Source of the DNA: a virus | Strand: one strand, 5' to 3' | IMG/VR virus record: IMGVR_UViG_3300034072_000907 | Coordinates: 1-28,370 of that record | Length of the DNA: 28,370 nt | Shown: positions 4,300 to 19,399 of the stretch, piece by piece | How the letters are laid out: every line of letters starts with the position of its first letter | Numbering within the stretch: position 1 is the first letter of the stretch | Translations under genes and position numbers: made by a program | The notes under the pieces: model-generated | What the model was told of the DNA's origin: nothing | Seen by the model: the letters and a program-made list of their open reading frames with translations, nothing else | Databases searched by the model: none

Positions 4300-4320
4300 C
4301 ACGGACAGGTGTCCGGGGCG
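4300..4320 (+). promoter_or_regulatory. putative late operator/promoter element, copy 1 (lysis operon)
   Basis: First of three identical 21-bp copies. The core is a 14-bp dyad with 6-bp arms CGGACA and TGTCCG separated by GG (4302-4315), followed by GGGCG. It lies between the Mor/C-like gene and the endolysin gene, 33 bases before ATG 4354. Context and symmetry suggest the binding site of the dimeric Mor/C-like activator at a late lysis promoter. No -10 hexamer conserved among the three copies was found. Repeat identity is seen directly; function is inferred. Confidence 0.7.
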
Positions 4321-4353
4321 ATAGACCGGCTCCCAAGCCGTCAAAAGCGGGCC

Positions 4354-5052
4354 ATGACAGGCCCTTCTCAACAGCCCCCCAGCGCTCAGGAAGACACATC
4401 AAACGATGTGGCGATCGTGGTGCAGGCTTATAGCCAGCGCTATCGCAAGGCGGTGCTGCACGTGCTCGGCATCGAGGGCGGGCATGTCAACGATCCGGTC
4501 GACCGGGGCGGCGAGACCAAGTTCGGCATTTCGCTGCGCTTCCTGAAGGCGGAAGGCGCGATCGACGAAGATGGCGACGGCCTGGCTGACTTCGATCTAG
4601 ACTTCGACGGCGATATCGATGGCGCGGATATTCGCGCGCTGACGGTCGGCGATGCGATCTTCCTCTATCATCGTTGCTTCTGGCTGCGGTTGCAGGCCGA
4701 GACCTTCCCGTTGCCGGTCGGCGAGATGCTGTTCGACCAGGCGGTGAATGGTGGCCTTGTGGCGGCGCGCAAGCTGCTGCAGCGGGCAATCAATTCCTGT
4801 ATCCTGCTGATGCCGGCCAGCAAGACGCGGATCGCGCTGCTGAAGGTTGATGGCGTGATCGGCAATGCCACGCGCCATGCCATGCTTGAAGTCATCCAGT
4901 GGCCGAGCCTTGGCCTGGCGGCGCTGGTGACCGCTTACCGGGACGCCGCGCGCGAGCGATATCGCGCGATCGCGCGTTTGGTGCCGAGCCAGCGCAAGTA
5001 TCTCAATGGCTGGCTGGCGCGGGCCGACAAGCTGGGAAAGGGCTTCGCGTGA
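4354..5052 (+). CDS. endolysin, GH108 N-acetylmuramidase with Asp-rich loop and peptidoglycan-binding domain
   Basis: A 232-aa muramidase that cleaves the glycan strands of peptidoglycan at lysis. Residues 41-60 show the GH108 signature EGGHVNDPVDRGGETKFGIS, where E41 is the expected catalytic acid. A GH108-type helix follows (FWLRLQAETFPLPVGEMLFD, then QAVNGGLVAARKLLQ). The C-terminus (about 145-232, ending RKYLNGWLARADKLGKG) resembles a PG_binding_3 domain. Between them, residues 71-92 form an Asp-rich EF-hand/dockerin-like stretch (DEDGDGLADF, DLDFDGDIDGAD). There is no signal peptide, so export should depend on a holin. ATG 4354 is preferred over GTG 4309, which falls inside the operator repeat, although the ribosome binding site is weak. 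The stop overlaps the spanin start (GTGA). Confidence 0.88.
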   Translation: MTGPSQQPPSAQEDTSNDVAIVVQAYSQRYRKAVLHVLGIEGGHVNDPVDRGGETKFGISLRFLKAEGAIDEDGDGLADFDLDFDGDIDGADIRALTVGDAIFLYHRCFWLRLQAETFPLPVGEMLFDQAVNGGLVAARKLLQRAINSCILLMPASKTRIALLKVDGVIGNATRHAMLEVIQWPSLGLAALVTAYRDAARERYRAIARLVPSQRKYLNGWLARADKLGKGFA

Positions 5053-5663
5053 GCGCCGCCTGGTCCCTTCTGAAGCTGCTGGGCGCGCCGATCGGCGCGG
5101 TGCTCAAGTGGCTGTTCGCCGACTGGCGCAACCTCATGGTCACGGTTCTAGCGCTTGGCCTGTGCAACCTGGCGTTCCGCGTTGCGCCGAGGCTGCGCGA
5201 CGAGATCGCCGCGGTCACCAAGCAGCGTGATGCCGAGCGCGGCACGGTGGCGAACCTGCGGGAGGCCGCGCGACAGGCGGCGATCCGGCAGCAGATCAAC
5301 TTGCAGCGCGTGGGCGCGGCCCATGAATCAATCAACCGGGAGAACGTGAGTGCGTTGCAATCCGATGTGGCTGGCCTGCGCCGCCGTGCCGAGCTGCTTG
5401 CTGGCCAGTTGCGGGACGCCACCGCCCGAACCCATCCCGGCAGCGCCGATCGAGCTGGTTTGCCCGGCATCGTTCCGTCCCGCACCGGAATTGCTCAAGC
5501 GTCCGCTGATCAAGGATTTCCTGCAGCCGCTGGAAACACCTGCCCCATCGTCAGTGGGGCAATGACCATCCAGGAGCGGCTGATTGCCAGCGAGCAGGCC
5601 TATCAGCTCGACCGGCTGATCGACGCCGTTGTCGCATCATCACAGGTGAGCACGGCACCATGA
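5049..5663 (+). CDS. Rz-like inner-membrane spanin
   Basis: A 204-aa i-spanin that, with the nested outer-membrane lipoprotein, fuses inner and outer membranes in the last step of lysis. There is one membrane helix at about residues 29-43 (LMVTVLALGLCNLAF), then a periplasmic coiled coil from about 48 to 120 (DEIAAVTKQRDAERGTVANL through LRRRAELLAGQLRDATA), then a Pro/Gly-containing tail. The start is GTG 5049, overlapping the endolysin stop by four bases; the stop overlaps the holin-like ATG. The N-terminal 28 residues before the membrane helix are longer than in lambda Rz but amphipathic. The presence of an o-spanin in another frame inside this gene is strong support. Confidence 0.82.
   Translation: MSAAWSLLKLLGAPIGAVLKWLFADWRNLMVTVLALGLCNLAFRVAPRLRDEIAAVTKQRDAERGTVANLREAARQAAIRQQINLQRVGAAHESINRENVSALQSDVAGLRRRAELLAGQLRDATARTHPGSADRAGLPGIVPSRTGIAQASADQGFPAAAGNTCPIVSGAMTIQERLIASEQAYQLDRLIDAVVASSQVSTAP
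5350..5565 (+). CDS. Rz1-like outer-membrane spanin lipoprotein, nested in the Rz gene
   Basis: A second reading frame lying wholly inside the Rz-like gene encodes a 71-aa lipoprotein precursor. It has a short hydrophobic signal (MWLACAAVPSCLLAS) and a lipobox LLAS-C with the lipidated Cys at residue 21 if GTG 5350 is the start, or 16 if ATG 5365 is used. The mature protein is Pro-rich from its first residues (CGTPPPEPIPAAPIELVCPA), as in lambda Rz1. GTG 5350 supplies an Arg in the n-region; ATG 5365 does not, so either start is possible. The nested arrangement is the classical embedded Rz/Rz1 architecture. It is lipidated, sorted to the outer membrane and pairs with the coiled coil of the i-spanin. 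Confidence 0.82.
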   Translation: MRCNPMWLACAAVPSCLLASCGTPPPEPIPAAPIELVCPASFRPAPELLKRPLIKDFLQPLETPAPSSVGQ

Positions 5664-6136
5664 TCGAGCCGGTTTCCATCAAGCAGCTGGCCGCGTTCTA
5701 CGGTCCATGGGCCATGTCGGTACTGGCTGCGGCTGTCGGTGAGCCGCGCCTGGCCGCGCATGCCGCGCCGGGCATCGTGGTGCATATCGACAGCCTGGCC
5801 GTGCCGCTGCTGCAGGGCGTGCTTGCGCTGGTTGGCGTCATCATGGCCCGTCCGCTGGCACCGCGTCGCGAGAGCGAAGTGGGCTGGCTGAGGTTTGGCC
5901 TAATCACCGCGATCATGGCGATCGTCGCCGTGATCTGGGTCGGGCAATCGCATCCCGGCCCGCTGCTGACTTTCGTGGTTTCACTTGGCCTGGGCTTCTC
6001 CGGGTATTCGCTGATCGAGTTCGCCGGGCGCGAGATCGAAGGCATGATCAAGCGCCTGATCGGGCTGTCCACCGGCACCACGCCGGGCAGCGTCGGCACT
6101 GGCGGCAACTCCAAGCAAACGGGAACAGACCAATGA
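5660..6136 (+). CDS. putative holin, three membrane helices
   Basis: A 158-aa membrane protein with three clear hydrophobic helices: around residues 45-65 (AVPLLQGVLALVGVIMARPL), 74-93 (WLRFGLITAIMAIVAVIWVG) and 97-120 (GPLLTFVVSLGLGFSGYSLI), and a polar Gly/Thr-rich C-terminus. The topology resembles class I holins, which form lesions that release cytoplasmic endolysin. It overlaps the spanin stop (ATGA) and the next gene. No sequence-level holin family is recognised; the call rests on topology and position in the lysis cassette next to an endolysin that lacks a signal peptide. Confidence 0.6.
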   Translation: MIEPVSIKQLAAFYGPWAMSVLAAAVGEPRLAAHAAPGIVVHIDSLAVPLLQGVLALVGVIMARPLAPRRESEVGWLRFGLITAIMAIVAVIWVGQSHPGPLLTFVVSLGLGFSGYSLIEFAGREIEGMIKRLIGLSTGTTPGSVGTGGNSKQTGTDQ

Positions 6137-6474
6137 CCGGCAGTTGGCTGGAATGGGCCATCATCATCTTTATCGTGTTCTCGATCGGCACCGTGGTGTG
6201 GCGCGGCGGCGCTGCCAATCCGGAAGGGACTGGCAAGCTGCGCACAACGGTGAACCAGTTGCGCGGTGACGTTTCCATCATTTCGCAGCGTGTCGGCCAC
6301 CTCGAAACGGAAGTGGCCGAGCTTAAGGATGAAGCTGCAACGGCCAAGGATATCCAGCGGATCGAGCAGCTGATCGACGAGCGCACCGCTGCACAGAAAG
6401 ACCTGATCGAGCGTCAGGCGCATCAGCTCGATCGGATCGAGCGGCTCATTCTTGCCAAGGGGTTAGGGCATTGA
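6133..6474 (+). CDS. Mu gp25-like membrane-anchored coiled-coil protein (DUF2730-like)
   Basis: A 113-aa protein with an N-terminal membrane helix (WLEWAIIIFIVFSIGTVVW) followed by a long coiled coil (QLRGDVSIISQRVGHLETEV, then AELKDEAATAKDIQRIEQL). This layout and the position before the gp26- and gp27-like genes match the DUF2730/Mu gp25 family. The function in Mu is unknown. The start overlaps the holin-like stop by four bases, and the stop overlaps the TTG start of the next gene. It could alternatively be a lysis accessory (antiholin-like) protein given its topology and neighbours. Confidence 0.65.
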   Translation: MTGSWLEWAIIIFIVFSIGTVVWRGGAANPEGTGKLRTTVNQLRGDVSIISQRVGHLETEVAELKDEAATAKDIQRIEQLIDERTAAQKDLIERQAHQLDRIERLILAKGLGH

Positions 6475-6764
6475 CCGACATCGTGACTGAAGACGCCCGC
6501 CTGTGGACGCTTCGTGAGCTTCAGAAGCAGGTTGACGGCCGGCTCAACGAGATTCTGATCCGCCGTGTGCTGGACACCAAGTACGGCATCAACCGCGATC
6601 GCGATTGGGTGGTGACACAACTGCGCAAGTTGGAGATGCTCGGGGTGATCGAGCTTATCCCGACCGGCACGGTGCTCGTGGCGAAGATTTCGCCGTTGGG
6701 CCGCAACTTCCTCGACGAGCAGATCGTAGTCGAAGGCATAACGCTGCCTTCCGAGGCGCGGTAA
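6471..6764 (+). CDS. Mu gp26-like winged-helix small protein
   Basis: A 97-aa protein with a winged-helix look: helices LWTLRELQKQVDGRLNEIL and RDWVVTQLRKLEMLGVIEL, then a beta hairpin (TGTVLVAKISPLGRNFLDEQ). It resembles the small Mu gp26/VpaChn25_0724-type phage proteins found just before the terminase genes. The start is TTG 6471, overlapping the upstream stop (TTGA). A DNA-binding role in packaging or late regulation is plausible but not shown by the sequence. Confidence 0.65.
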   Translation: MTDIVTEDARLWTLRELQKQVDGRLNEILIRRVLDTKYGINRDRDWVVTQLRKLEMLGVIELIPTGTVLVAKISPLGRNFLDEQIVVEGITLPSEAR

Positions 6765-6765
6765 C

Positions 6766-7359
6766 ATGAGTGGGGCGGAAGAAGCCGCCAAGAACCGGCG
6801 TGATGGCCGAGGCTGGCTCTCGTCGATCGACAAGCTGCCGGACGAGGCCGAAGGCGACGTGATCTGGGCGCTGGAGCAGCTGCGCGAGCGCAAGCTGCCA
6901 CAGAACACGATCCTGATGGAGTTCAACGAGCGGCTTGCCGACAAGGGCATCCCGCCGATCTCGAAATCGGCCTGGTCGCGCTATGCCGTGCGCAAGGCGA
7001 TCCAGTTTCGCAAGCTTGACGAAGTGCAGCGCATGTCGGGCGAGCTGGTGAACTCGCTGGGCACCGATGGTCCGGATCAGGTCACCGTGGCCGTGGCCGA
7101 GATGCTCAAGACGGCGATGTTCCAGCTGCTGGAAGGCGGCGAGGTTTCGACCAAGGGCATCATGGAACTGAGCCGCGCCCTGCAGTCGGCCGTCTCTGCG
7201 CAGAAGGGTTCGGACGAGTATCGCCGCCAGCTGGAAGCGCGCGTTCAGGCGCAGATGGTCAGTGCGGCCGACCGGGTTGAGGATGTTGGCCGCGAAGCTG
7301 GTCTCAGCTCCGAACGGATTGCGCAGCTGCGGCGTGAGTTTCTGGGCGTCAGGCAATGA
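6766..7359 (+). CDS. terminase small subunit-like protein, Mu gp27 family (DUF3486)
   Basis: A 197-aa protein of the DUF3486/Mu gp27 type. Early in the sequence it has WLSSIDKLPDEAEGDVIWAL, then a helix-turn-helix-like region (LPQNTILMEFNERLADKGIP, then ISKSAWSRYAVRKA), a central helical body and a C-terminal helix ending QLRREFLGVRQ. The family is thought to be the DNA-recognition (small) terminase subunit for headful packaging. The stop overlaps the start of the large terminase gene by four bases, in Mu order (gp27 then gp28). Confidence 0.8.
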   Translation: MSGAEEAAKNRRDGRGWLSSIDKLPDEAEGDVIWALEQLRERKLPQNTILMEFNERLADKGIPPISKSAWSRYAVRKAIQFRKLDEVQRMSGELVNSLGTDGPDQVTVAVAEMLKTAMFQLLEGGEVSTKGIMELSRALQSAVSAQKGSDEYRRQLEARVQAQMVSAADRVEDVGREAGLSSERIAQLRREFLGVRQ

Positions 7360-8990
7360 GCCAAGTCGCCGAGCCAGATACCCTGCCGACGGCAACGCAG
7401 GCACCGCCGCTTTCGCCGATCGACAATCTTGTGCCCGGCATGTTGCCGCCCGAAGGCTTCGACCCTTTGGCCGATGGCATCCTGATGGAGCACCAGAAAG
7501 AGTGGATTGCCGACCGATCCCCTCTGAAGGCCGGAGAAAAGGGGCGACGCTGCGGAATTACCTTTGCGGAAGCTCTGGACAGCACGTTGATCGCAGCAGC
7601 GGCGCGTAGTGCTGGCGGTGACAACACTTACTACGTTGGCGACACCAAGGATAAAGGCTTGGAGTTCGTGGCGACGTGTGCGCGGTTTGCTATCATGGTC
7701 GCGAAAGAAGTGCTGGCGGTTGGCGAGTTCCTGTTTGAGGACAAGCAGGAGGACGGCACCAGCAAGTACATCACCGGCTATCGCATCCGCTTTGCGTCGG
7801 GGTTCTCGATCGTCGGCCTATCCAGCAGCCCAGCTAACATCCGCGGTCTTCAGGGCCGTGTGATTATCGACGAGGCAGCGTTCCACCGCAATGTTGCCGC
7901 TGTTATCGATGCCTGCAACGCGCTGCTGATCTGGGGTGGCGTGATCAGGATCATCTCAACGCACAACGGTGCTTTGAATGCCTTCAACGAGCTGCTGAAG
8001 GAAACGCGCGCAGGCCAGTACGATTACTCGATTCACCGCATCACGTTCGACGATGCTGTGCGCAATGGGCTGTACGAGCGCGTCTGTTTGATGCGCGGAA
8101 CGGAAGCGACACCTGAAGGCAAAGCCGAATGGTATCGCAAAATCCGGCGTTCTTACGGCACCCGCGTGGAAGCGATGCGCGAGGAACTTGATGCGATCCC
8201 GCGTGAGGGTGAAGGCGTGCTTCTGCCGCTTGCATGGATCGAGGCCTGCAGCAGCGCAGAGTACAAGGTTTGTCGCTGGGAGCCGCCATACGAGAACTTC
8301 GTGCGGATGCCTGAAGCTGCCCGCTTTGGTGAGATGCAGCAATGGCTGGAAAAGCAAGTTGCACCGATCCTGCAGCGCTTCGCCAATCAGGGCCTGACCT
8401 GGTATGTCGGCGGTGACTTTGCCATGCGGCAGGACCGCAGCTCGTATCCGCTGGGCTATGTTGGCAATGACCTGAAGCGCCACGTGCCGCTAATCCTTGA
8501 AATGCGGCAATGCCCCTATGCCCAGCAAAAGCAGGCGCTCTTCTGGTTGATCCAGCAATGCCAGATGATGGGAAGCTTCGGCGGCGGCATCTTGGACGCT
8601 AACGGTAATGGCATGGTTCTGGCGCAGGAGACGTGCCAGAAGTTCGGCTTCGACAAGATCGTTGAGTTGATGCCATCCAGTTCCTGGCAGCGCGAAACTG
8701 GGCCACGCTTCCGCGCAGCCTTCGAAGACGGGACGATTTTGATTCCCGCCGATCTCGATACCCGCAACGATCTGCGCCAGCTCGTTATGTCAGGTGGCGT
8801 ACCGAAGCTGCCCAGCGATGTTCGCAATGAGGGCACGGACGGTGGGAAGCGGCATGGCGATAACGCCATCGGCCTTTGGAACTTTCACGCCGCGACCATG
8901 CGCGACACCGGAGCGCCATGGCGTCCGCTGATCGATGCACCGGGATCTACGCGACCACGCACTCTCGACGATGTCTGGATTTCCGCATGA
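7356..8990 (+). CDS. terminase large subunit, Mu gp28-like
   Basis: A 544-aa packaging motor. The N-terminal ATPase part has the region KAGEKGRRCGITFAEALDST, where the Walker A function in Mu-type terminases is a degenerate Arg/Gly segment, and Walker B RVIIDEAAF at about residues 169-177, with a motif III-like RIISTHNG near 198-205. The C-terminal nuclease domain begins at about 350 with YVGGDFAMRQDRSS (metal-binding Asp) and includes a second acidic strand, GGGILDANGNGM. It cuts concatemeric or integrated DNA and translocates it into proheads. The start overlaps the small terminase stop (ATGA), and the stop overlaps the portal start. Length is normal for the family. Confidence 0.85.
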   Translation: MSQVAEPDTLPTATQAPPLSPIDNLVPGMLPPEGFDPLADGILMEHQKEWIADRSPLKAGEKGRRCGITFAEALDSTLIAAAARSAGGDNTYYVGDTKDKGLEFVATCARFAIMVAKEVLAVGEFLFEDKQEDGTSKYITGYRIRFASGFSIVGLSSSPANIRGLQGRVIIDEAAFHRNVAAVIDACNALLIWGGVIRIISTHNGALNAFNELLKETRAGQYDYSIHRITFDDAVRNGLYERVCLMRGTEATPEGKAEWYRKIRRSYGTRVEAMREELDAIPREGEGVLLPLAWIEACSSAEYKVCRWEPPYENFVRMPEAARFGEMQQWLEKQVAPILQRFANQGLTWYVGGDFAMRQDRSSYPLGYVGNDLKRHVPLILEMRQCPYAQQKQALFWLIQQCQMMGSFGGGILDANGNGMVLAQETCQKFGFDKIVELMPSSSWQRETGPRFRAAFEDGTILIPADLDTRNDLRQLVMSGGVPKLPSDVRNEGTDGGKRHGDNAIGLWNFHAATMRDTGAPWRPLIDAPGSTRPRTLDDVWISA

Positions 8991-11110
8991 GCTGGCTTCA
9001 ATCCTTCAAATCCTTCGGCATGAAGGCGGCAGAGACCTGGCGCGAGATGCGCCATGGCGGGCGCGTGCCGTTCCTGTCGGGCCTGCTGCGCCGGACGCGC
9101 TTCGACTACCGCAAGGAAGTGGGCGATTGCCTCGATTCCTCGGTTGTGACCGCGCCTGCCATGTGGATCGGCCGCGCGCTGCCCGAGGCAGAGCTGGCGC
9201 TGAAACGCAAGGATGCCAAGGGCAACGTGACCGAGGTGGACAATCACCCGATGCTGGACCTGATCCAGACGCCCAACCCGTTCTATGGCGATATCGCGCT
9301 GTGGATGGCGACGATCGTGTCGTTCGTCATCACCGGCAATGCCTACTGGCTGATCATGCGCAACAGCTATGGCCAGCCTGCCGAGCTGTGGTTCGTGCCG
9401 AGCTGGAACATGGAGCCGTGCTGGCCGCAGGATGGCAGCGAGTTCATCCGGCACTACCACTACCGGCCAGGTGGCAGCAGCGGCGAGACGTTCCATATCC
9501 GACCCGAGGACGTGGTGCACTTCCGCTATGGCATCAACCCGCGCAATCCGCGCATGGGCCTTTCGCCGCTGGAAGGTGTGATCCGCGAGATCTTCATCGA
9601 TCTTGAAAGCAGCAACTTCGTTGCCAGCCTGCTGCGGAACATGGGCGTGCCGGGCGTGGTGATCAGCCCCAAGGCCGGGGCGATGCCGGCACCCGAGGAC
9701 GTGCAGGCGACCAAGACATGGTTTGCGCAAGCGTTCGGCGGCGACAACCGCGGCGGGCCACTGGTGATGGGCGCGCCGACGGACGTGTCCTCCTATGGCT
9801 TCAATCCGCAGCAGATGAACATGAGCGAAGGCCGTGACGTGGCCGAAGAGCGCGTCTGCGCCTGCCTTGGCATCCCGGCCGCAATCGTCGGCTTCGGCGC
9901 CGGTCTCCAGTCGACCAAGGTTGGCGCAACTATGGAAGAGCTGCGCAAGCTGGCCTGGAACAATGGCGTGCTGCCGATCGGGCGGATGCTGGCCGACGAA
10001 TTGAAGCGTTCGCTGCTGAGCCAGTTCACCGGATCGCAAGGCTTGCATGTCTGCTGGGATACGGACGATGTGCCGGCGCTGCAGGAAGACGAGGACAAAC
10101 GCTGCGACCGCGCCATCAAACAGTTCAAGGAAGGCCTGATCAGCCACCACCAGGCGCTGCGCATCGTGGGCGAGGAGCCGCTCTCAACGGCTGACTTCTA
10201 TCTGCGGCCGATATCGGTGAACGAAGTGCCGGTGGCCGAGGTCGGCATTCGCGTTGAACCGCAGTCCACGCTGCCGCTGCTTATGCCGCCCAAGGGTGCG
10301 AAGGCGCAGGCGACGGACGCGGCCTACAAGAAGGGCTATGCCTGGGCACTGCTGTTGCAGCGGCAGTCGACCGGCCTGCAAGCCAGCGCTGAGAAGTCTC
10401 TCAGCCGCTTCTTTGTCGGCCTTGGCATGCGCGCCCGCCACGAGGCGATGCCGTTCCTGGAGCGCGATCCGACCATTGCGGGCAAGGAGGCCGAGAAGGG
10501 TGAGAAGTCCGACGAGCTGCTGGCGCAACTGATCCTGGACAAGCTGGGCATTGCGCAGTTCCAGGCCGATCTGCGCCATATCTACGAGGCGCACTACCTG
10601 GAGGTGGCCAAGGCGACCAATGCCGCAGTTGAGAACGCCGGCATTGGCGTGAACCTCTCCCTTGGCGTGAACCTGTCCGACGTGGTTGCTCAGTCTATTC
10701 TGGCGGCGGGCGGCAAGCGCGTCGGCCTAGTCGACCTTGAAGGGCAGACGCGTGATGCGCTGTTCCAGTCGCTGGCGCAAGGCCGCGCCGAGGGCGAAGG
10801 GCCGATCAAGCTGGCGATGCGCATCTCGGACCTGGTCGAGGCCGGGCCGAGCACTTCGCCGCTGCTTCGTGCCCGCCGGATCGCACGGACGGAAACCGCC
10901 TATGCCCAGAACGTGGCGACGATCGAGCGCGCCCGCGAGGCGGGTTTTGGCACCCTGATCATCTATGACGGGCTGCTGGGGCCGGGCCGATCATCCGAGG
11001 AGCACATGGCGCGGAACGGTTCGATCGTCTCGATCGAGCAGGCATTGATCATGGCCGACGAAGAGCATCCCAACGGGACGCTGAGCTTCGCGCCGAATTT
11101 CGAGGAGTGA
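8987..11110 (+). CDS. portal protein fused to MuF-like head-morphogenesis domain
   Basis: A 707-aa protein. The first part, about residues 40-400, is an HK97-type portal (DSSVVTAPAMWIGRALPEAE, then VDNHPMLDLIQTPNPF, GNAYWLIMR, and PRMGLSPLEGVIREI): the ring through which DNA enters the capsid and to which the tail docks. The C-terminal part, about 440-707, is helical and ends with LRARRIARTETAYAQNVATI and ERAREAGFGT, a pattern of the phage Mu F/SPP1 gp7 minor head protein family. Mu keeps portal and F as separate genes; here they form one ORF with no internal stop. ATG 8987 overlaps the terminase stop (ATGA); longer upstream starts would overlap the terminase by more than 100 bases. The MuF part looks short and divergent. 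Confidence 0.85.
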   Translation: MSWLQSFKSFGMKAAETWREMRHGGRVPFLSGLLRRTRFDYRKEVGDCLDSSVVTAPAMWIGRALPEAELALKRKDAKGNVTEVDNHPMLDLIQTPNPFYGDIALWMATIVSFVITGNAYWLIMRNSYGQPAELWFVPSWNMEPCWPQDGSEFIRHYHYRPGGSSGETFHIRPEDVVHFRYGINPRNPRMGLSPLEGVIREIFIDLESSNFVASLLRNMGVPGVVISPKAGAMPAPEDVQATKTWFAQAFGGDNRGGPLVMGAPTDVSSYGFNPQQMNMSEGRDVAEERVCACLGIPAAIVGFGAGLQSTKVGATMEELRKLAWNNGVLPIGRMLADELKRSLLSQFTGSQGLHVCWDTDDVPALQEDEDKRCDRAIKQFKEGLISHHQALRIVGEEPLSTADFYLRPISVNEVPVAEVGIRVEPQSTLPLLMPPKGAKAQATDAAYKKGYAWALLLQRQSTGLQASAEKSLSRFFVGLGMRARHEAMPFLERDPTIAGKEAEKGEKSDELLAQLILDKLGIAQFQADLRHIYEAHYLEVAKATNAAVENAGIGVNLSLGVNLSDVVAQSILAAGGKRVGLVDLEGQTRDALFQSLAQGRAEGEGPIKLAMRISDLVEAGPSTSPLLRARRIARTETAYAQNVATIERAREAGFGTLIIYDGLLGPGRSSEEHMARNGSIVSIEQALIMADEEHPNGTLSFAPNFEE

Positions 11111-11115
11111 GCATC

Positions 11116-11826: not shown

Positions 11827-11845
11827 ATTGGACCCATGCTGATTT

Positions 11846-11878: not shown

Positions 11879-12088
11879 CCTGTCCCCGGCAAAAGCGCCG
11901 CACCTGCCTTCTTAGGCCTTCTTAAACCGCGAAATGGGGCAATTGGTTGCCCACTCTCGGCAACGATCTGCACCTGTTGGCGGTGCAAGGTTGTCAGAAG
12001 CCGGTTTGATCGTTTAGACCCGCCTTCGGTGGCAGGCGATGCCCCGATCCACATCGCCTTCCACTTCACCCACATTCTAGCGCGCCGC

Positions 12089-12109
12089 CACGGACAGGTG
12101 TCCGGGGCG
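12089..12109 (+). promoter_or_regulatory. putative late operator/promoter element, copy 2 (head operon)
   Basis: Second identical copy of the 21-bp repeat, with dyad CGGACA-GG-TGTCCG at 12091-12104, 66 bases before the major capsid ATG. It lies in non-coding sequence, so coding constraint does not explain its conservation. It probably drives the capsid and head-tail operon under control of the Mor/C-like protein. It shares one further base upstream (C) with copy 3. Confidence 0.7.
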
Positions 12110-12136
12110 AAGGCGCGCGCAAGCTCCTGCCACATG

Positions 12137-12159: not shown

Positions 12160-12175
12160 TTGAGGAGCGACGGGT

Positions 12176-13492
12176 ATGTCCGAACTGAATTTGACGCAGC
12201 TGCGCGAGAAGGCGGCTGCAAAGCAGGATGAGCTTGGCAAGGTGTTTGCCGAAGCGCTGATCAGCGATGGCGGCGAGAAGAAGTACGACTTCAACCGCGT
12301 CACCGTCTTGGGCCCGGACGTGAAGGGTTCGATTGCTGTGGCCGAAAAGGTCGAGCAGCTGAACAACGAGCTCAACGACATTTGCGCGAAGGCTGAGACG
12401 CTTGAGGCTGCCGAAAAGGCAGCGGCGCAGCATGCCGAGCGGTCCAGGGCTGTTCGCGGTTTCCCGTTCCCGGGCGGCAAGGGCAACCACCCCAACGAGC
12501 AGGCGCGCATCAAGTCGCTGGGTGAGCTGATCGCCGAAAACGAGCAGTACAAGGCCTATGCCGCGCGCGGTGCGGTCGGCGGGCTCGATCTCGGTTTTGG
12601 CGAACTGCTGCTTTCCGACATGCTGGCCAAGGGCGAGCAGTTCGCCACGCTTGGCAGCAAGACGCTGATGACGACTTCGGCGGGCTTTGCCCCGGAAAGC
12701 ATCCGCCTTCCCGGTTATACCGAGGCGGTCACCCGCCCGATCCAGCTGCTCGACATCATTCCCATGTTCCCGACCACGCAGGCGGCGATCAAGTACATGG
12801 AAGAAACCACCCGCACCCATGCGGCTGCGGAAACGGCCGAGGGCGGCAGCTATGCCGAGAGCACGTTCGCTTTCACAGAGCGCACGAGTTCGGTGGCCAA
12901 GATCACCGACAGCGTGCCGGTGACCGACGAGCAGCTTGAAGACGTGGCGATGATGCAGGGCTACCTCAACAGCCGCCTGACCTTCGGTGTGCGTCAGCGG
13001 CTCGACCGTCAGGTGTTGATCGGCGACGGTTCTTCGCCGAACCTGCGCGGGCTGAAGAACGTGAGCGGCATCCAGACCCAGGCCAAGGGCGCCGATCCGG
13101 TTCCCGATGCCTTCTTCAAGGCGATGACCAAGGTTCGCGTCACCGGCCGTGCCGTGCCGACGCACCACGTGATGCACCCGACCGATTGGCAGGGCGTGCG
13201 CCTGCTGCGCACGGCTGACGGCATCTACATCTGGGGTTCGCCGGCTGAAACCGGGCCGGAGCGTCTGTGGGGCCTGCCGGTGGTGCAGAACGATGCCGAC
13301 AGCGCCGGCACGGGCTACACCGGTTCGTTCCAGCCTGCCTGGTGCTCGCTGTTCGAAAAGCGCGGCGTCGATGTGCAGGTTGGCTACGTCGGCTCGCAGT
13401 TCACCGAAGGCAAGCGCACGGTCCGCGCCGATGCCCGCGCCGCGATGGTGTGGATGCGCCCGGCCGCGTTCTGCTCGGTCACCGGTCTCTAA
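12176..13492 (+). CDS. major capsid protein, HK97 fold
   Basis: A 438-aa capsid protein. The first 110 or so residues form a coiled-coil, charged delta domain (LTQLREKAAAKQDELGKVFA and VEQLNNELNDICAKAETLEA) expected to act as internal scaffold and to be removed by the upstream protease. The mature part has HK97-family features: LMTTSAGFAPESIRLPGYTE, EETTRTHAAAETAEGGSYAE, SVPVTDEQLEDVAMMQGYLN and a C-terminal P-domain ending TVRADARAAMVWMRPAAFCS. The start has a good ribosome binding site (GAGGAG, 12162-12167). It is the first gene after late operator copy 2, consistent with its own strong promoter. Confidence 0.92.
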   Translation: MSELNLTQLREKAAAKQDELGKVFAEALISDGGEKKYDFNRVTVLGPDVKGSIAVAEKVEQLNNELNDICAKAETLEAAEKAAAQHAERSRAVRGFPFPGGKGNHPNEQARIKSLGELIAENEQYKAYAARGAVGGLDLGFGELLLSDMLAKGEQFATLGSKTLMTTSAGFAPESIRLPGYTEAVTRPIQLLDIIPMFPTTQAAIKYMEETTRTHAAAETAEGGSYAESTFAFTERTSSVAKITDSVPVTDEQLEDVAMMQGYLNSRLTFGVRQRLDRQVLIGDGSSPNLRGLKNVSGIQTQAKGADPVPDAFFKAMTKVRVTGRAVPTHHVMHPTDWQGVRLLRTADGIYIWGSPAETGPERLWGLPVVQNDADSAGTGYTGSFQPAWCSLFEKRGVDVQVGYVGSQFTEGKRTVRADARAAMVWMRPAAFCSVTGL

Positions 13493-13665
13493 GCCGGAAT
13501 TGAATGCAGGCCCAAAGGGGCGTGGCTGACATCCGGGTCGGCGCGCCTCTGGCCAGGCCATGAGTGGGCGGATCGGCGGGTGCTGCGGGAGCAGCTCCTG
13601 CTTGATCCAGGGCCGCTCGCCCGCCGCCGGATAGAGCGGGCAAACTCTTCAGAAGGATTGGTCCG
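13493..13665 (+). other. intergenic region with inverted repeats after the capsid gene
   Basis: A 173-base gap. GGCGGG (13575-13580) can pair with CCCGCC (13620-13625), enclosing a smaller stem of GCGGGA (13585-13590) with TCCTGC (13596-13601). No T-run follows. It may be a partial terminator or an mRNA-stabilising structure that sets the capsid level relative to the downstream genes. AAGGA at 13653-13657 is the ribosome binding site of the next gene. Confidence 0.35.
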
Positions 13666-14214: not shown

Positions 14215-14231
14215 CCGAAAGGCACCCTGAC

Positions 14232-14693: not shown

Positions 14694-14696
14694 GCC

Positions 14697-15263
14697 ATGG
14701 CGCTGATCGACCGGGTCAAGGAACGCACGGGCAGCGACCTTTCCGATACCGAGCTGCAGGCGATGATCGACGGCATTGCCGACGAGATGGAGCTGCGGTT
14801 CGGTCCGGCAGGGCCGGTGCTGGTGCTGTCCGGCGACCCGGCCGATCCGGCCACGCAATATCGCCGCACGCTGCGCCTGGTGCGCGCGATCGACACGGCC
14901 GAGGATATCGAGATTGTCGAAATCGATCCCGGCAACAGTGGCGATGCCAGCGCCCGCGTGACGCTGGCGGCGGACGATTACCGTGTGCTGCATGGCGGGC
15001 GCACGCTGCAGCGCCTGATCAGCGGCACCAACGGGCGCGAGTTCTGGGCACCGATGGTCGAGCTTTCCTACACGCCCAAGGGCGAGCAGGCGGCGCGCGA
15101 GGAAGCGACGATCCAGCTGATGCAGCTGCAGCTTTCCTATCGCGGTGGCCTGAAGTCCGAACGGGCGGGTGACTACAGCTTCACCCTGTCCGGCGACATG
15201 GGCGCAGACCGCGAGAAGATCTTCGAAGGGCTCGCGCAGCGTCGCGGGATGGTGATGGCATGA
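14697..15263 (+). CDS. head-tail connector protein (HK97 gp6-like)
   Basis: A 188-aa protein beginning with the helical LIDRVKERTGSDLSDTELQA, then MIDGIADEMELRFG, the usual start of gp6-like connector (head completion) proteins that form a ring under the portal. The centre is a beta domain (RTLRLVRAIDTAEDIEIVEI, RVTLAADDYRVLHGGRTLQR). It ends with the common segment AREEATIQLMQLQLSYRGGL and KSERAGDYSFTLSG. Order after capsid and decoration genes fits. The stop overlaps the next start (ATGA). Confidence 0.78.
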   Translation: MALIDRVKERTGSDLSDTELQAMIDGIADEMELRFGPAGPVLVLSGDPADPATQYRRTLRLVRAIDTAEDIEIVEIDPGNSGDASARVTLAADDYRVLHGGRTLQRLISGTNGREFWAPMVELSYTPKGEQAAREEATIQLMQLQLSYRGGLKSERAGDYSFTLSGDMGADREKIFEGLAQRRGMVMA

Positions 15264-15457
15264 GCGAAGTTGATGCAGCGCAGGAGCTGCTGACCAAGAC
15301 GGCAACCGCGATCGAGGCTGTGGCCGCGATGCTGAAGGCGATGCAGACGGCATCCTGCGATCCGCGTGGCATGGCCGTCTGCCGCACACAGTTTGAAACC
15401 GCCTTTCTCTGGGTTGCCAATGCCCAGGGCGGCGAACCTGTGTTTGGGGGAGCCTGA
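15260..15457 (+). CDS. candidate Acb2-like (Acb2/Tad1 hairpin) cyclic-nucleotide sponge
   Basis: A 65-aa all-helical protein: an N-terminal helix (VDAAQELLTKTATAIEAVAA) joined by a CDPRG turn to a second helix (MAVCRTQFETAFLWVANA). The turn and second helix follow the pattern of the Acb2/Tad1 hairpin proteins (Arg, then a helix of the type lAlTklEEAxMWxxxA). Acb2 hexamers sequester cyclic di- and trinucleotides and block CBASS anti-phage signalling; in B3-like Pseudomonas phages the gene also lies among structural genes. The protein is shorter than many family members, and the match is by pattern only. It overlaps both neighbours (ATGA and TGATG), so it is expressed with the head genes. Confidence 0.5.
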   Translation: MSEVDAAQELLTKTATAIEAVAAMLKAMQTASCDPRGMAVCRTQFETAFLWVANAQGGEPVFGGA

Positions 15458-15717
15458 TGTTTCGTGGCTTCCGCATCATGGCATTGGCCGCTGCTTTCGC
15501 GGTTTCAGCGTCGCCCATCGGACCGACCGGTGACAAGGGCTTGGCCTGTGAAGTCGCGCCTCGTGCCACTACGCGCCGTCAGAAGGCGCGTCGGCTTGTA
15601 CATAACGGGTGGCGTCGGCGGCGCAGCCGTGGCCCTGCTTCGCATCCCCGCCGCCGTTCAAACCGGCTGCATGTCAGCCGCCGCGTGCGCCGCCGCAATC
15701 GCAGACGGGCAGCATGA
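15457..15717 (+). CDS. small Arg-rich protein with signal-like N-terminus (uncertain frame)
   Basis: An 86-aa ORF. It starts in a TGATG overlap with the previous gene and ends in an ATGA overlap with the next, the arrangement used by most real genes here. The N-terminus looks like a signal peptide (FRGFRIMALAAAFAVSASP). From about residue 37 it becomes extremely Arg-rich (RATTRRQKARRL, WRRRRSRG, RVRRRNRRRAA), which often marks a shadow frame in GC-rich DNA. The +1 frame (15548-15748) looks more protein-like over that part, so a frameshifted or overlapping gene is possible. No function can be assigned. Confidence 0.4.
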   Translation: MFRGFRIMALAAAFAVSASPIGPTGDKGLACEVAPRATTRRQKARRLVHNGWRRRRSRGPASHPRRRSNRLHVSRRVRRRNRRRAA

Positions 15718-15748
15718 CGCGCCCTCGCTCTCCCAAGCTCGTACGTAA
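15548..15748 (+). CDS. alternative/overlapping small membrane ORF
   Basis: A 66-aa reading frame starting at GTG 15548 with AAGGG upstream. Its third codon positions look more GC-rich than in the overlapping 15457-15717 frame, and it encodes a plausible basic N-terminus plus a hydrophobic helix (GLYITGGVGGAAVALLRIPA), then an Ala/Cys-rich segment. It could be a real overlapping gene, the displaced 3' part of a frameshifted version of the previous gene, or spurious. It runs 35 bases into the next gene, which weakens the case. Confidence 0.3.
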   Translation: MKSRLVPLRAVRRRVGLYITGGVGGAAVALLRIPAAVQTGCMSAAACAAAIADGQHDAPSLSQART

Positions 15749-15992
15749 GCCGCTGCAGGTGACGCCTGAGCTGCAGGCGTTGGCCGAGAAGTTCTATCCG
15801 ATCCCGAAAGGCGCAAAGATCTGGCAGGGCTTCAGCTGGAACGATGCTCAAGGCTGCAAGCGTCGCATGCGTCTGTACTTCGACGACGGGCTGCAACTGG
15901 ACGCAAAATTCGGCGCGCCGATCGACGGCATGCAGACGATCGGTAACTACAGCCTGAAGTTCAATCTGGTCACCGAAAGGAACGCAGCGTGA
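15714..15992 (+). CDS. small hypothetical protein (92 aa)
   Basis: A 92-aa protein with a basic N-terminus, a short helix (VTPELQALAEKFYPIPKG) and a beta-rich second half (KRRMRLYFDDGLQLDAKFG, MQTIGNYSLKFNLVTE). I do not recognise a family. The start overlaps the upstream stop (ATGA), and the stop overlaps the GTG of the next gene. It lies in the accessory-looking block between head-tail joining genes, so a role outside virion structure is as likely as a structural one. Confidence 0.55.
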   Translation: MTRPRSPKLVRKPLQVTPELQALAEKFYPIPKGAKIWQGFSWNDAQGCKRRMRLYFDDGLQLDAKFGAPIDGMQTIGNYSLKFNLVTERNAA

Positions 15993-16204
15993 TCCTGACG
16001 CTCTTCCTTGTCTGGCTTGCTGGTCTGAGCATCGGGTTGCTGATGACGTGGCTGAAAGTGCGCAAGCCGATGGACCCGATCGGCGGGGCAATCACCCTCA
16101 TGTTCGGCGTGGTCTTCTCGATCTTCTGGCCGGTGGTCGTTGTCTACTGCGTAGGCATGGGATGCTGGTGCGTCGCGCGTTGGCCCGAGGAGATCGAGCC
16201 ATGA
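15989..16204 (+). CDS. small two-helix membrane protein
   Basis: A 71-aa protein with two hydrophobic helices (ILTLFLVWLAGLSIGLLMTW and GAITLMFGVVFSIFWPVVVV) separated by a short basic loop (LKVRKPMDP), and an acidic C-terminus. GTG 15989 overlaps the upstream stop and the stop overlaps the next ATG. Both termini are probably on the same side of the inner membrane. Candidates include a superinfection-exclusion or holin/antiholin-type protein, but nothing specific is recognised. Confidence 0.55.
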   Translation: MILTLFLVWLAGLSIGLLMTWLKVRKPMDPIGGAITLMFGVVFSIFWPVVVVYCVGMGCWCVARWPEEIEP

Positions 16205-16854
16205 GCCTGGCTGATCCCGTCCACGGGCCGATGCCGGGCCGGGTGCTCTGCAAGGATTGCGCGCATATCAGCGGCGGGACCTGCATCCGTCCGATCGGCC
16301 TGCACTTCGACGCCGGCATCAACGGCTTTCGCAAGCGGCTGCATGTCAGTGCGGCGCTGGAGCGAGGCCGCCTCAAGACGCTGGCCAAGCGCGTCTGTTG
16401 CGGGCCGGATGGGCAGTTCTTCGAGCCGAAGGGCGCGCTTGATCCGATCCTGCCGGTGGATGCGCCACGCGACGATAGCGAGTTCGATATTCCTGCCGAT
16501 CCGGTCGCGTCGGTTCTGGACACGCTGCGAAGCAACCCGCCCGAAGTGATCGCGTGGGCCAAGAGATCAGCCAGCCTGGGAAGGGACCCGACAATGACCG
16601 ACGAGCAGATCAAGCACATGGTCAACCGCTTCCTTAGCTGGAAGCTGCCTGCCGATTTCGCTCCGGATTGCGGGATTTCGTTCGACCGTGTGTCCTGCAA
16701 GGGAACGCCGCACGAGTTTCATTACGCGCCGGTTGGCACCAACCTGCTAACCGCATCGCAGGCCGAAGCAATGATCCGCCACATGCTCGTCGGCATTCCG
16801 GCAGGCCGTGCGCATGACACGATTGCGGACAGCGACGGGGATGACGGCGCATGA
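16201..16854 (+). CDS. Cys-rich N-terminal plus phage C-terminal domain protein
   Basis: A 217-aa protein with two parts. Residues 1-80 carry a Cys pattern, C-x2-C-x7-C (LCKDCAHISGGTCIRPIG) and later CCGPDGQFFEP, suggesting a small metal-binding module. After an acidic linker, the C-terminal 90 residues (TDEQIKHMVNRFLSWKLPAD, then ISFDRV, and GTNLLTASQAEAMIRHMLVG) match a short phage protein that I recall as free-standing in other alphaproteobacterial phages. This ORF may therefore be a fusion of two common small phage proteins. ATG 16201 overlaps the upstream stop, and the stop overlaps the next start. Function unknown. Confidence 0.55.
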   Translation: MSLADPVHGPMPGRVLCKDCAHISGGTCIRPIGLHFDAGINGFRKRLHVSAALERGRLKTLAKRVCCGPDGQFFEPKGALDPILPVDAPRDDSEFDIPADPVASVLDTLRSNPPEVIAWAKRSASLGRDPTMTDEQIKHMVNRFLSWKLPADFAPDCGISFDRVSCKGTPHEFHYAPVGTNLLTASQAEAMIRHMLVGIPAGRAHDTIADSDGDDGA

Positions 16855-16994
16855 CTTCCGAGCAGATCCTGCTGGTCAGCCTTGGCGCTGCTGCGTTGCT
16901 TCTGCTGCCATTCGTCGGCGGTGGTGGCCGCGCCTCGCGCCCCAAGGCCCCGCCGCCGTTACCAGGTACGCCACCACCGCCGCAGAGGAAGTGA
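16851..16994 (+). CDS. 47-aa membrane peptide with Pro-rich tail
   Basis: A short ORF whose ATG overlaps the upstream stop (ATGA). It encodes one hydrophobic helix (ILLVSLGAAALLLLPFV), a Gly turn, then a basic Pro-rich tail (RASRPKAPPPLPGTPPPPQR). It ends one base before the GTG start of the following gene. Overlap and spacing support it. The product is probably a single-span inner-membrane peptide with a cytoplasmic tail; function unknown. Confidence 0.5.
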   Translation: MTSEQILLVSLGAAALLLLPFVGGGGRASRPKAPPPLPGTPPPPQRK

Positions 16995-16995
16995 C

Positions 16996-17304
16996 GTGAA
17001 AGCTGATGTCATCTCTGACAACCCGATGCTGGCAGCGCTGATCGATTGGCGCGAGGATCTGGCGCGCGCGGCAGAGGCGCGCGGTGACGAGATGTTCATG
17101 TTCGTGCCTGACGCCTGGTTCGAAGAGCCGCACTGGTTTTGCACGCAGGGGCATGTCTCTCGAGTCTATCTGCGGACAGACGCCGGGGCGCGATGCGAGG
17201 CATGCCATGGCGAGGTCATTCTTGGCCCTGCAATGACCGAGGCGGACTTTGCCCAAGTGCTTGGCGGGCTTGCGCTGAAAGTGGCGCAGGAAGCTGCGTC
17301 ATGA
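16996..17304 (+). CDS. phage zinc-ribbon protein
   Basis: A 102-aa protein with a zinc-ribbon-like motif: WFCTQGHVSRVYLRTDAGAR then CEACHGEVILGPAM, giving C-x3-H and C-x2-C ligand pairs about 15 residues apart. Small proteins with this knuckle (a CxxGHVS-type strand, then a C-x2-C turn and a LGP ending) are common in tailed phages, with no settled function. GTG 16996 is the likely start, with GAGGA about 8 bases upstream. The stop overlaps the head-closure ATG. Confidence 0.6.
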   Translation: MKADVISDNPMLAALIDWREDLARAAEARGDEMFMFVPDAWFEEPHWFCTQGHVSRVYLRTDAGARCEACHGEVILGPAMTEADFAQVLGGLALKVAQEAAS

Positions 17305-17648
17305 TCTCCGGACGGCTGACCATGCGGGCGCAGATCGAGCGCGAGACGGCGACCGGCAGCGATGCCTGGGGCGGGCCGAATGCGGGCACGTTCGCGCCGC
17401 TGGGCGATCCGGTGGCGTGCTTTGTCTACTCGCAGCAAGCGAGCCAGCTGATCGACGGGCAGAAGCAGGCGCAGATTGAAGTGACGCGCGCATTGTTCGC
17501 GCCGGGCACGGACGTGCGGCCGGGCGACCGCCTGGCGAGCGTCACGGATCGCAAGGGCACCCTGCTGCATGCCGGGCCACTGAAGGTCGAAGGTCCGGTG
17601 CAGTTCAAGCATACGCACCTTGAAGCGACGTTGGAGAGGATCGTCTGA
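17301..17648 (+). CDS. head closure / head-tail adaptor protein
   Basis: A 115-aa mainly beta protein of the SPP1 gp16/HK97 head-closure type: ISGRLTMRAQIERETATGSD, a strand with GDPVACFVYSQQASQLIDGQ, then IEVTRALFAPGTDVRPGDRL and a closing strand LEATLERIV. It would seal the portal-connector channel after packaging and provide the surface for tail joining. It follows the accessory block and starts a run of tail-completion genes. The start overlaps the upstream stop (ATGA), and the stop overlaps the next ATG by one base. Confidence 0.72.
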   Translation: MISGRLTMRAQIERETATGSDAWGGPNAGTFAPLGDPVACFVYSQQASQLIDGQKQAQIEVTRALFAPGTDVRPGDRLASVTDRKGTLLHAGPLKVEGPVQFKHTHLEATLERIV

Positions 17649-18238
17649 TGGCGCAAAGCTCTCTCCGCTGGAACGGCAAGGCCGTGAAGGCGCGCATGCT
17701 TGCGGCGACGATCAGAGGCGTCAACGACACGATGGCTGCCGCGGTGAACCATGCCAAGGCGAACCACGACTGGGACAATGACACCGGCAACCTCAATCGC
17801 GGCATCGTGATCCTGGGCAATGCCGCGCCCGACGAGAAGGGCGTAAGCGGCACCTGGGGCGTGGTCGACGTGGAGTATGCGCTGATCCACGAGCTGGGCG
17901 GCGTGATCGAGCCGAAGAACTCCAAGTTCCTGGCTATCCCGGTGACGGACCTGGCGCGCAAGGCCGGATCGCCGCGCAACCTGGTCGGCCTTGCCTACGT
18001 GCAGAGCATCAAGGGCCAGCCCATGCTGGTCGATGATGAAAGCGGCGAGGTCCACTACATCCTCAAGCGCAGCGTGACGATCCCGGCGCGGCCATACCTG
18101 CGCCCGGCAGGCGATGCGAAGTATCCCGAGCTGGCGGCGAACATCCGCAAGGCATGGGACAGGCTGAAGCCCGGTGAAGCTGGCGGTGCGCCCAGCGGTT
18201 CGGGGGGCGGATCGGCGGGAGGTGACGGCGATGCCTGA
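17648..18238 (+). CDS. tail completion protein, HK97 gp10-like
   Basis: A 196-aa protein resembling HK97 gp10: a helical N-terminus (VKARMLAATIRGVNDTMAAA), the core NDTGNLNRGIVILG, then VVDVEYALIHELGGVIEPKN, and the family-typical IPARPYLRPAGDAKYPELA near the end. Gp10-like proteins join the tail to the head. The C-terminus is a Gly/Ser-rich low-complexity extension that overlaps the next start. The start shares one base with the stop of the head-closure gene. Confidence 0.75.
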   Translation: MAQSSLRWNGKAVKARMLAATIRGVNDTMAAAVNHAKANHDWDNDTGNLNRGIVILGNAAPDEKGVSGTWGVVDVEYALIHELGGVIEPKNSKFLAIPVTDLARKAGSPRNLVGLAYVQSIKGQPMLVDDESGEVHYILKRSVTIPARPYLRPAGDAKYPELAANIRKAWDRLKPGEAGGAPSGSGGGSAGGDGDA

Positions 18239-18662
18239 CATCCCCGCCGATCCGATTGGCGCGATCGTCGCGATCCTGCTGGCCGATGCCGACGTGGCAG
18301 CCCGGGTTGGTACGCGCGGCTTTGGTGGCGAGCTGCCTGCAGCCGAGACCGATGACATGCCGCGCGATGCCTTCGTGGTGAAGGCGTCGGGCGGTGCTGC
18401 CGTGAACGGGCGTGGCTTTGCCGAGTACGATACCCAGCGGGTGGACCTCTATGCCTTCGGGCAGACGCCAGCGCTGGCCGCGTCGCTTGCCGATCTGTGC
18501 GCGCTGAAGCTGCGCCGGGCGCGATCGCAAGTAGCGGACGGCACGTTCGTGCACTGGGTTCAAAGCGCCGGGGGTTTTTCGAGTGGGCGGGAGCCGGTGA
18601 CCGATTGGCCGCGCGCGTGGCGATCGTTCCAGATCCAGTACGCGCTGGTCAAAGTAAGCTGA
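18231..18662 (+). CDS. tail terminator-like protein (DUF3168-type)
   Basis: A 143-aa protein with a layout typical of tail terminators: an N-terminal helix (PIGAIVAILLADADVAARVG), a strand DAFVVKASGG, then the segment VDLYAFGQTPALAASLADLC followed by a beta sheet ending WRSFQIQYALVKVS. It would cap the growing tail tube at the correct length and connect it to the head. ATG 18231 is well supported by a strong ribosome binding site, GGGAGGTGA at 18217-18225. It overlaps the gp10-like gene by 8 bases. Confidence 0.7.
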   Translation: MPDIPADPIGAIVAILLADADVAARVGTRGFGGELPAAETDDMPRDAFVVKASGGAAVNGRGFAEYDTQRVDLYAFGQTPALAASLADLCALKLRRARSQVADGTFVHWVQSAGGFSSGREPVTDWPRAWRSFQIQYALVKVS

Positions 18663-18675
18663 AGAGGAGGTTTAG

Positions 18676-19272
18676 ATGGAACCGTATGAAATCGTAGGAC
18701 AGCCGTTGACGCTGTGGCTGGCTCCGGTCGGCACCGCGTTCCCGGACATTGATGCAGCGCCGGGCAATCCGTGGGTGCTGGTTGGCACCAGCGGCGATCG
18801 CAGCGAGACCGAGGAAGGCGTGACGGTGACGCACAGCCAGACCATCAACAAGGTCCGCGCAGGCGGCTCGGTCGGCGCGGTCAAGGCTTTCCGCCCGGAA
18901 GAAGACCTGATGTTCCGCGTCACGCTGATGGATGTCAGCCTGGAGCAGTACAAGCTGGCGGTGAACGGCAATGCGCTGACCACCGTGGCGGCCGGCGCCG
19001 GCACGGTCGGCACCAAGAAGATGGGCCTTTCCCGGGGCAAGGACGTGACGGTCTATGCACTGATCGCGCGGGGTGTTTCGCCATATGACCCGACGTTCGA
19101 GGCGCAGTACCAGGTGCCGCGCTGCTACGTTTCGGGGAGCCCGGCGATCGTCTACCGCAAGGGCCAGCCTGCCGGCATCGAGCTGACGTTTGAAGCGCTG
19201 GAAGATCTGGAAGCGGCAAGCGAAGACGAGCGCTTCGGCAGCCTGATCGCGCAGCACCAGGCGGCGCTCTGA
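18676..19272 (+). CDS. major tail tube protein
   Basis: A 198-aa beta-sandwich protein with features of siphophage tail tube proteins: YEIVGQPLTLWLAPVGTAFP at the N-terminus, a loop with TSGDRSETEEGVTVTHSQTI, then FRPEEDLMFRVTLMDVSLEQ and a closing strand RKGQPAGIELTFEALEDLEA. It polymerises as stacked hexamers around the tape measure. A strong ribosome binding site (GGAGG, 18666-18670) lies five bases before the ATG. It is the last gene before an intrinsic terminator, consistent with the end of the head/tail-tube transcript. Confidence 0.8.
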   Translation: MEPYEIVGQPLTLWLAPVGTAFPDIDAAPGNPWVLVGTSGDRSETEEGVTVTHSQTINKVRAGGSVGAVKAFRPEEDLMFRVTLMDVSLEQYKLAVNGNALTTVAAGAGTVGTKKMGLSRGKDVTVYALIARGVSPYDPTFEAQYQVPRCYVSGSPAIVYRKGQPAGIELTFEALEDLEAASEDERFGSLIAQHQAAL

Positions 19273-19283
19273 CGGGCAAACCA

Positions 19284-19309
19284 GCGGCGGCGTTGCGCGA
19301 CGCCACCGC
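19284..19309 (+). other. hairpin after the tail tube gene
   Basis: GCGGCGGCGT (19284-19293) pairs with ACGCCACCGC (19300-19309) with one mismatch around a six-base loop. It begins 11 bases after the tail tube stop and lies just ahead of a stronger terminator hairpin. It may protect the 3' end of the abundant tail tube mRNA or form a tandem terminator. Confidence 0.45.
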
Positions 19310-19321
19310 ATGGCCTAAGAG

Positions 19322-19357
19322 ACGGGGAGGCGAGCAGTGCTCCTGCCTTCCCGTTTT
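19322..19357 (+). terminator. intrinsic terminator after the tail tube gene
   Basis: ACGGGGAGGC (19322-19331) pairs with GCCTTCCCGT (19345-19354) with a single G-U wobble, and the enclosed GAGCA/TGCTC extends the stem. The stem runs into TTTT (19354-19357). This is the clearest Rho-independent terminator in the window. It separates the head/tail-tube operon from the next late operator, only 21 bases downstream. Confidence 0.75.
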
Positions 19358-19378
19358 CGTACTGGCCTCACTTTCCCC

Positions 19379-19399
19379 CACGGACAGGTGTCCGGGGCG
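19379..19399 (+). promoter_or_regulatory. putative late operator/promoter element, copy 3 (tail operon)
   Basis: Third identical copy of the 21-bp repeat (dyad 19381-19394), 34 bases before the ATG of the tail chaperone gene and directly after an intrinsic terminator. The position corresponds to a separate tail promoter, as with the P promoter of Mu. Since the upstream transcript should stop, this element is the most obvious source of transcription for the remaining 9 kb of tail genes. Confidence 0.72.

Follow-up and report, generated by a model that had tools for sequence, protein, structure and literature searches.

Three identical dyads ahead of late operons in a Mu-like phage fragment: candidate operators of a single Mor/C-type activator

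Why would a phage carry the same 21-base word three times, letter for letter, each time in the gap that precedes a late operon? The question is raised by a viral DNA fragment of 28,370 nucleotides (IMG/VR record IMGVR_UViG_3300034072_000907, positions 1 to 28,370; this whole stretch is called the window below), where the word, CACGGACAGGTGTCCGGGGCG, lies on the + strand at 4300-4320, 12089-12109 and 19379-19399, and where the first copy follows a gene that resembles those of the late activators Mor and C of phage Mu. Our answer, to which we give about nine chances in ten, is that the three repeats are operators of a single Mor/C-type activator, encoded at 3895-4284, each of them being part of a late promoter. 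A Mor/C-dependent late promoter regulon had been proposed in a preliminary description of the window, and the comparative data now support it through dyads shared with relatives, a conserved -10 element and covariation between operator and protein.

The repeated element and its companion gene

A search of the whole record bore out the positions of the three copies, their common orientation and the absence of mismatches, and no further copy turned up even with as many as three mismatches allowed. No other word of at least 14 bases occurs in triplicate in the window. Because the Mor open reading frame ends at 4284, 15 bases separate it from copy 1, while the gaps between the end of a copy and the next ATG (4354, 12176 and 19434) are 33, 66 and 34 bases; recomputed, the spacings given in the preliminary description hold. 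The same description had each copy precede the head of an operon, which family matches confirm for endolysin and capsid, whereas the tail chaperone is placed by its position only, the protein encoded at 19434-19958 having no family match. No Rfam family was matched in the window. Copy 1 is taken as an operator on the basis of homologous sites that follow Mor in relatives. Sixteen lysis sites retrieved through the protein alone share the right flank, GGGGCGC (1.3-2.0 bits), and no more than two bases of the left flank, so that the element is polar, and more than a palindrome.

By homology, the product of 3895-4284 is a member of the Mor/C family, and the first assignment was correct: it matches PHROG 836, 'late transcriptional activator' (Table 1), as do Mu Mor and Mu C (E 1.2e-10 and 2.1e-11). 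Its score with Pfam Mor, 21.8, is just below the cut-off of 24.9, and 10 of 19 relatives reach E <=0.001 with this family (best E 1.8e-7). Only one Mor/C gene was found here. The AlphaFold2 (AF2) model of the protein, with a mean predicted local distance difference test score of 82, has helices at residues 95-102 and 106-116, the latter being the last helix of a helix-turn-helix (HTH) and containing residues 110 and 111. Together with the covariation of these two residues with operator bases, described below, the model points to a C-terminal HTH that would read DNA.

The element recurs in relatives. A sister contig, with a Mor 98% identical, has three copies. The single window protein used as a query against genome contigs gave no match, and a query made from an alignment was needed. 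Searches led by protein, not DNA, brought relatives with Mor 28-66% identical. The closer ones have a diverged element, CGGAC-N4-GTCCGGGGCG, directly 3' of mor and a second copy about 8 kb further on. When IMG/VR was scanned with this pattern, many contigs matched; 15 of the 50 tested have PHROG 836 at E <=0.001, 14 of them strongly, and pattern-bearing records without Mor mostly hold one exact copy. The element, or its TTCC variant, is present in 24/24 Mor-encoding IMG/VR records examined, typically as two to three copies about 6-8 kb apart, and wherever orientation was checked the sites lie on the mor strand, with one exception to which we return.

Prophages of Sphingobium, Sphingopyxis and Sphingomonas carry it too. 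In Sphingobium sp. AS12 all three exact sites of a 4.9 Mb genome fall within the prophage region, and in S. faniae both exact sites, together with one with a single mismatch, do likewise. A search of related prophages for the dyad next to Mor/C genes, suggested at the outset as a check, thus finds it just downstream of them, with about three copies per phage. Conversely, the element is not widespread in hosts that lack the phage, which the preliminary description had named as counter-evidence: the pattern occurs in 8 of 399 Sphingomonadaceae genomes, and among these AS12, which carries a Mor prophage, alone has several copies on the same strand; in two others of the eight the matches on the two strands come from one and the same palindrome. 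Further away, in the Sinorhizobium phages StopSmel and Aussie and the Microcystis phage Mwe-Yong1 (Mor about 30% identical), no clear triple dyad was seen, and half-site-like CCTGACA matches are at chance level.

Two arrangements differ from the common one. In two Sphingobium prophages (G061 C16:80928 and G062 C60:220301) the third site lies about 13 kb past the capsid site, not 6-7 kb, and another late operon therefore seems to have gained a promoter. In G230, a sphingomonad genome, Mor is encoded twice, in opposite orientation and at a distance of about 50 kb (C1:3029377/3038278 and 3071539/3080368), both genes being of the GGAA-N4-TTCC type and having matching recognition helices.

Promoter geometry and the start of late messages

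That no conserved -10 element could be seen near the repeats, as first stated, is true of one genome and ceases to be so across relatives. When 44 sites are aligned on the dyad centre, a C at +12.5 and a cluster from +33.5 to +36.5 stand out, both outside the search pattern. In a set of 63 forward, non-redundant sites, [C/T]AnA starts at +32.5 or +33.5 in 38, a count that none of 2000 shuffles reached and that compares with a mean of 1.5 and a maximum of 4 at other pairs of offsets; [C/T]A alone is found there in 59 of the 63. A Mor/C-dependent promoter should present a dyad about 43.5 bp upstream of the start and a recognisable -10 without a -35; here a -10, [C/T]AnAnn, is conserved at +32.5/33.5 and a scan for sigma70-type promoters finds nothing at the three places, the start position itself being a prediction.

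Zymomonas mobilis, a relative of the sphingomonads, offers rules for that prediction: its -10 consensus is TANNNN, without T-7, its commonest discriminator is 6 bp long and leaderless transcripts are frequent (PMC7566282). Applied to the window, these rules place the starts at about 4354, 12143 and 19433. The first is the endolysin ATG and the third lies 0-1 nt before the ATG of the tail gene, and it is on account of this coincidence of positions that the lysis and tail messenger RNAs (mRNAs) are probably leaderless. It might be objected that Mor activates transcription here as proposed, with RNA starting further upstream or translation beginning at an internal codon: the -10 is weak, the length of the discriminator is itself deduced, and an in-frame GTG 18 codons into the endolysin has AGGA about 14 nt upstream of it. 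We consider this unlikely, since 28 of the 63 sites have an ATG between +44.5 and +47.5, none of the 28 with an upstream motif like that of Shine and Dalgarno, and since in Zymomonas leaderless mRNAs are common and the 6-bp discriminator is the most frequent (PMC7566282). The findings point towards leaderless late mRNAs in phages.

Further upstream, some 20-35 bp ahead of the dyad centre (around 12040-12065 in the window), capsid promoters often have a stretch that resembles ATCCCGACATCG. It is seen at the capsid sites of G003, G052, G039, G020 and G056 as well, and lysis and tail promoters seem to be without it; it is possibly the site of a second factor or a contact zone.

Covariation of operator and recognition helix

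Some relatives have GGAA-N4-TTCC in place of GGAC-N4-GTCC. Such operators were met in Sphingomonas ERG5, Sphingopyxis GW247-27LB, two more genomes of the host family and a second viral scan. The aligned recognition helix of the window protein reads ...S-M-R-Q-V-R110-R111-R..., and it was compared with its counterparts in a set of 58 rows, some of them near-copies: 35 with GTCC, 16 with TTCC and 7 with TGTCA (POA1180 type, Afifella, Fulvimarina and others). At position 111, all GTCC rows (35/35) have Arg and all TTCC rows (16/16) one of Lys, Leu, Met, Trp and Asn, while the TGTCA rows, 7/7, keep Arg 111 and have Tyr, Phe or Trp as residue 110. Whether the recognition helix varies with the operator arms had been put forward as a check; it does so in 58/58 rows. 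When the helix is left out and a tree is made from 45 distinct rows, each trait requires 10 changes, all concordant, and a single origin of TTCC is rejected (p-AU, from the approximately unbiased test, 4.2e-5); strongly supported branches provide three independent pairs, every one of them in agreement. The row set had been enlarged for this purpose because a first tree, of 26 rows, was too weak to reject the single origin (p-AU 0.27). The switch to TTCC is regulon-wide: the only such sites in the 3.7 Mb of one genome (G409) are three close to mor, and another (G064) has three in the prophage near mor and one elsewhere.

A third operator class, CGGCCA-NN-TGGCCG, was considered and is unconfirmed. 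It came from G460, where a single candidate site downstream of Mor (C1:3593425) reads CGGCCA-GC-TGGCCG with CAGAAC at +32.5; the palindrome is scattered throughout host genomes.

Covariation bears directly on who binds the dyads. Another protein might, such as the repressor of the phage or a silencer of late promoters from the host, with Mor acting elsewhere; a position over the promoter fits repression too, and sequence data by themselves do not name the binder. Yet whenever the operator changes, a single residue in Mor's recognition helix changes with it, the -10 lies at a distance that fits activation of the Mor type, and a host factor has to face the fact that the sites are missing from nearly all host genomes, so that we hold this account to be very improbable. 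Equally improbable is that the repeats act as RNA hairpins, whether intrinsic terminators between operons or leader structures. In favour of this, the arms can form a 5-bp stem with a 4-nt loop, folding is better than that of shuffles at 12089 (z -4.3) and somewhat better at 19379 (z -2.3), and G024 and POA1180 (at 19463) have a T-run after the dyad. Against it, copy 1 shows no gain over shuffles (z -0.9), none of the three window copies is followed by a T-run or resembles a terminator, and neither a fixed distance to a -10 and an ATG downstream nor covariation with Mor's recognition helix would be expected of a terminator. In the two cases with a T-run, the element may double as a terminator.

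Several points weigh against the three repeats being Mor operators. The site, the gene order, the fixed geometry and the covariation can be read in the sequences themselves; that Mor binds the repeats and activates transcription from them is what we infer. The assignments of residues to bases are correlations, and strongly supported branches hold just 3 of the 10 covariation changes. In G049 the best match to the pattern lies on the strand opposite mor. Many relatives were found via the operator pattern itself (the set found by protein gives the same profile), and the -10 is weak. Finally, Foldseek with the AF2 model returned no Mor structure among the matches listed, those from the PDB being generic HTH domains, none with E below 0.001, so that the fold evidence adds a generic HTH alone; a sequence search of the PDB did not recover Mor.

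If the repeats are indeed operators of the Mor/C-type protein, late expression could proceed as follows. In the early phase, the transposition region would be transcribed as far as mor, and a Mor dimer would then bind the 14-bp dyad CGGACA-NN-TGTCCG. Arg at residue 111 would recognise G, and Lys, Leu, Met, Trp or Asn there T, in the base pair at +/-2.5; the pair at +/-5.5 would fall to residue 110, Arg going with C and an aromatic residue with A. GGGGCG, conserved on the promoter side, would add a further contact zone. The dyad would stand in for a -35 element, as in Mu Pm, and RNA polymerase with the housekeeping sigma factor would use the weak -10, [C/T]AnAnn, beginning 32.5-33.5 bp from the dyad centre. 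RNA would start about 45 bp from this centre, a position which the ATG occupies in the lysis and tail operons; the capsid operon would have a short leader with a Shine-Dalgarno sequence. A single protein would thereby cover both of the steps that Mu takes, Mor then C. That an evolvable two-residue Mor/C code (111, 110), some ten whole-regulon switches and leaderless lysis and tail mRNAs should all hold together appears to us a reasonable expectation, held less firmly than the operators themselves.

Known systems and the features of the fragment

In Mu, the Mor dyad of Pm is 16 bp long and centred at -43.5, without a -35 element (PMC4390567, PMC4287176), and 31.5 bp separate its centre from the start of the -10 (at -12). 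The system described here would resemble it in having a small activator, dimeric by analogy and of the HTH type, a -10 without -35 that is used by a host polymerase of the sigma70 type (PMC4390567, PMC4287176), and an operator directly downstream of mor. It differs in that the two 5-bp arms with a 6-bp spacer are replaced by a GC-rich 14-bp dyad with a one-sided GGGGCG extension, in that the distance from centre to -10 is 32.5-33.5 bp, the -10 thus being 1-2 bp further away, and in that the site precedes the lysis operon, whereas Pm precedes the middle operon encoding C. As with the Mu C promoters Plys, PI, PP and Pmom, several dyad-dependent late promoters would answer to one activator of the same family (PMC4287176). 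Mu, by contrast, uses two activators in sequence where one Mor/C gene is found here, and unlike the Mu C set the promoters found are three, none of them at a modification gene in this fragment, with probable leaderless starts.

Ochrobactrum phage POA1180 (NC_070931), whose Mor homologue has 36% identity, follows the same plan: the present comparison revealed a perfect dyad at three places, ahead of the lysis, the head and the tail genes. Its operator is CCTGACA-N-TGTCAGG, with a 1-bp spacer, its helix has Y-R in place of R-R, and it is a myovirus. The dyads of POA1180 (L011) are at 5409, 19463 and 38971, before head protease, tail sheath and endolysin. In its genome paper (PMC5492332), a text search returned nothing on 'promoter' and 'Mor'. 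No earlier description of these operators was found in a search of literature text, most subscription papers being outside its reach.

To our knowledge, Mor/C regulation is known in depth from Mu only. A single activator, a GC-rich operator, a shifted geometry and probable leaderless late mRNAs are, as far as comparison of sequences goes, well supported as novelties with respect to Mu Mor/C. Alphaproteobacterial phages would offer a family of many Mor/C members with clear operators, a fixed promoter geometry and natural specificity switches; with these, the protein-DNA code of Mor/C, and the manner in which a regulon with many sites changes operator, become testable by swaps of single residues. 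The dyad with its -10 may also serve as a simple marker for late operons in sphingomonad prophages.

Table 1. Coordinates of the features discussed, numbered from the first base of the window
Feature	Position	Strand	Basis and remarks
Mor/C-family late activator, 129 aa	3895..4284	+	PHROG 836 E 3.9e-20; predicted recognition helix residues 106-116; putative specificity residues R110, R111
Candidate operator copy 1 (lysis promoter)	4300..4320	+	Dyad CGGACA-GG-TGTCCG 4302-4315, centre 4308.5; promoter-side GGGGCG
-10-like hexamer CAAAAG	4342..4347	+	+33.5 from dyad centre; predicted start ~4354; comparative profile
Endolysin (GH108 / PG_binding_3), opens lysis operon	4354..5052	+	Family matches
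Candidate operator copy 2 (capsid promoter)	12089..12109	+	Dyad centre 12097.5
-10-like hexamer CACATG	12131..12136	+	+33.5; CACATGG/CATATGG conserved at capsid promoters; predicted start ~12143
Shine-Dalgarno GAGGAG	12162..12167	+	Predicted 33-nt capsid leader; 8 bases before ATG 12176
Major capsid protein	12176..13492	+	Pfam Phage_capsid E 1.3e-32
Candidate operator copy 3 (tail promoter)	19379..19399	+	Dyad centre 19387.5
-10-like hexamer CATATC	19421..19426	+	+33.5; predicted start ~19433
First tail-operon gene, tail assembly chaperone position	19434..19958	+	Between major tail protein and tape measure

The record is a fragment of a Mu-like siphophage, and its host, judging from the relatives of the phage, is probably a sphingomonad. 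Its genes succeed one another as a MuB-like protein, a protein with a DnaA C-terminal domain, GemA, Mor/C, GH108 endolysin, terminase, portal and protease, then major capsid protein, major tail protein, tape measure and tail fibre. This is the plan of a Mu-like transposable phage, with a MuB-type protein, GemA and Mor in order, then lysis, head and tail genes, and the matches of Mu-like character are to Phage-MuB_C, AAA, TniB, GemA, a PHROG transposase fragment and the capsid. We know of no protein with the DnaA C-terminal HTH domain in Mu; here, the early-region protein that carries it (Bac_DnaA_C, E 2.2e-12) is 145 residues long and is encoded at 2055-2492.

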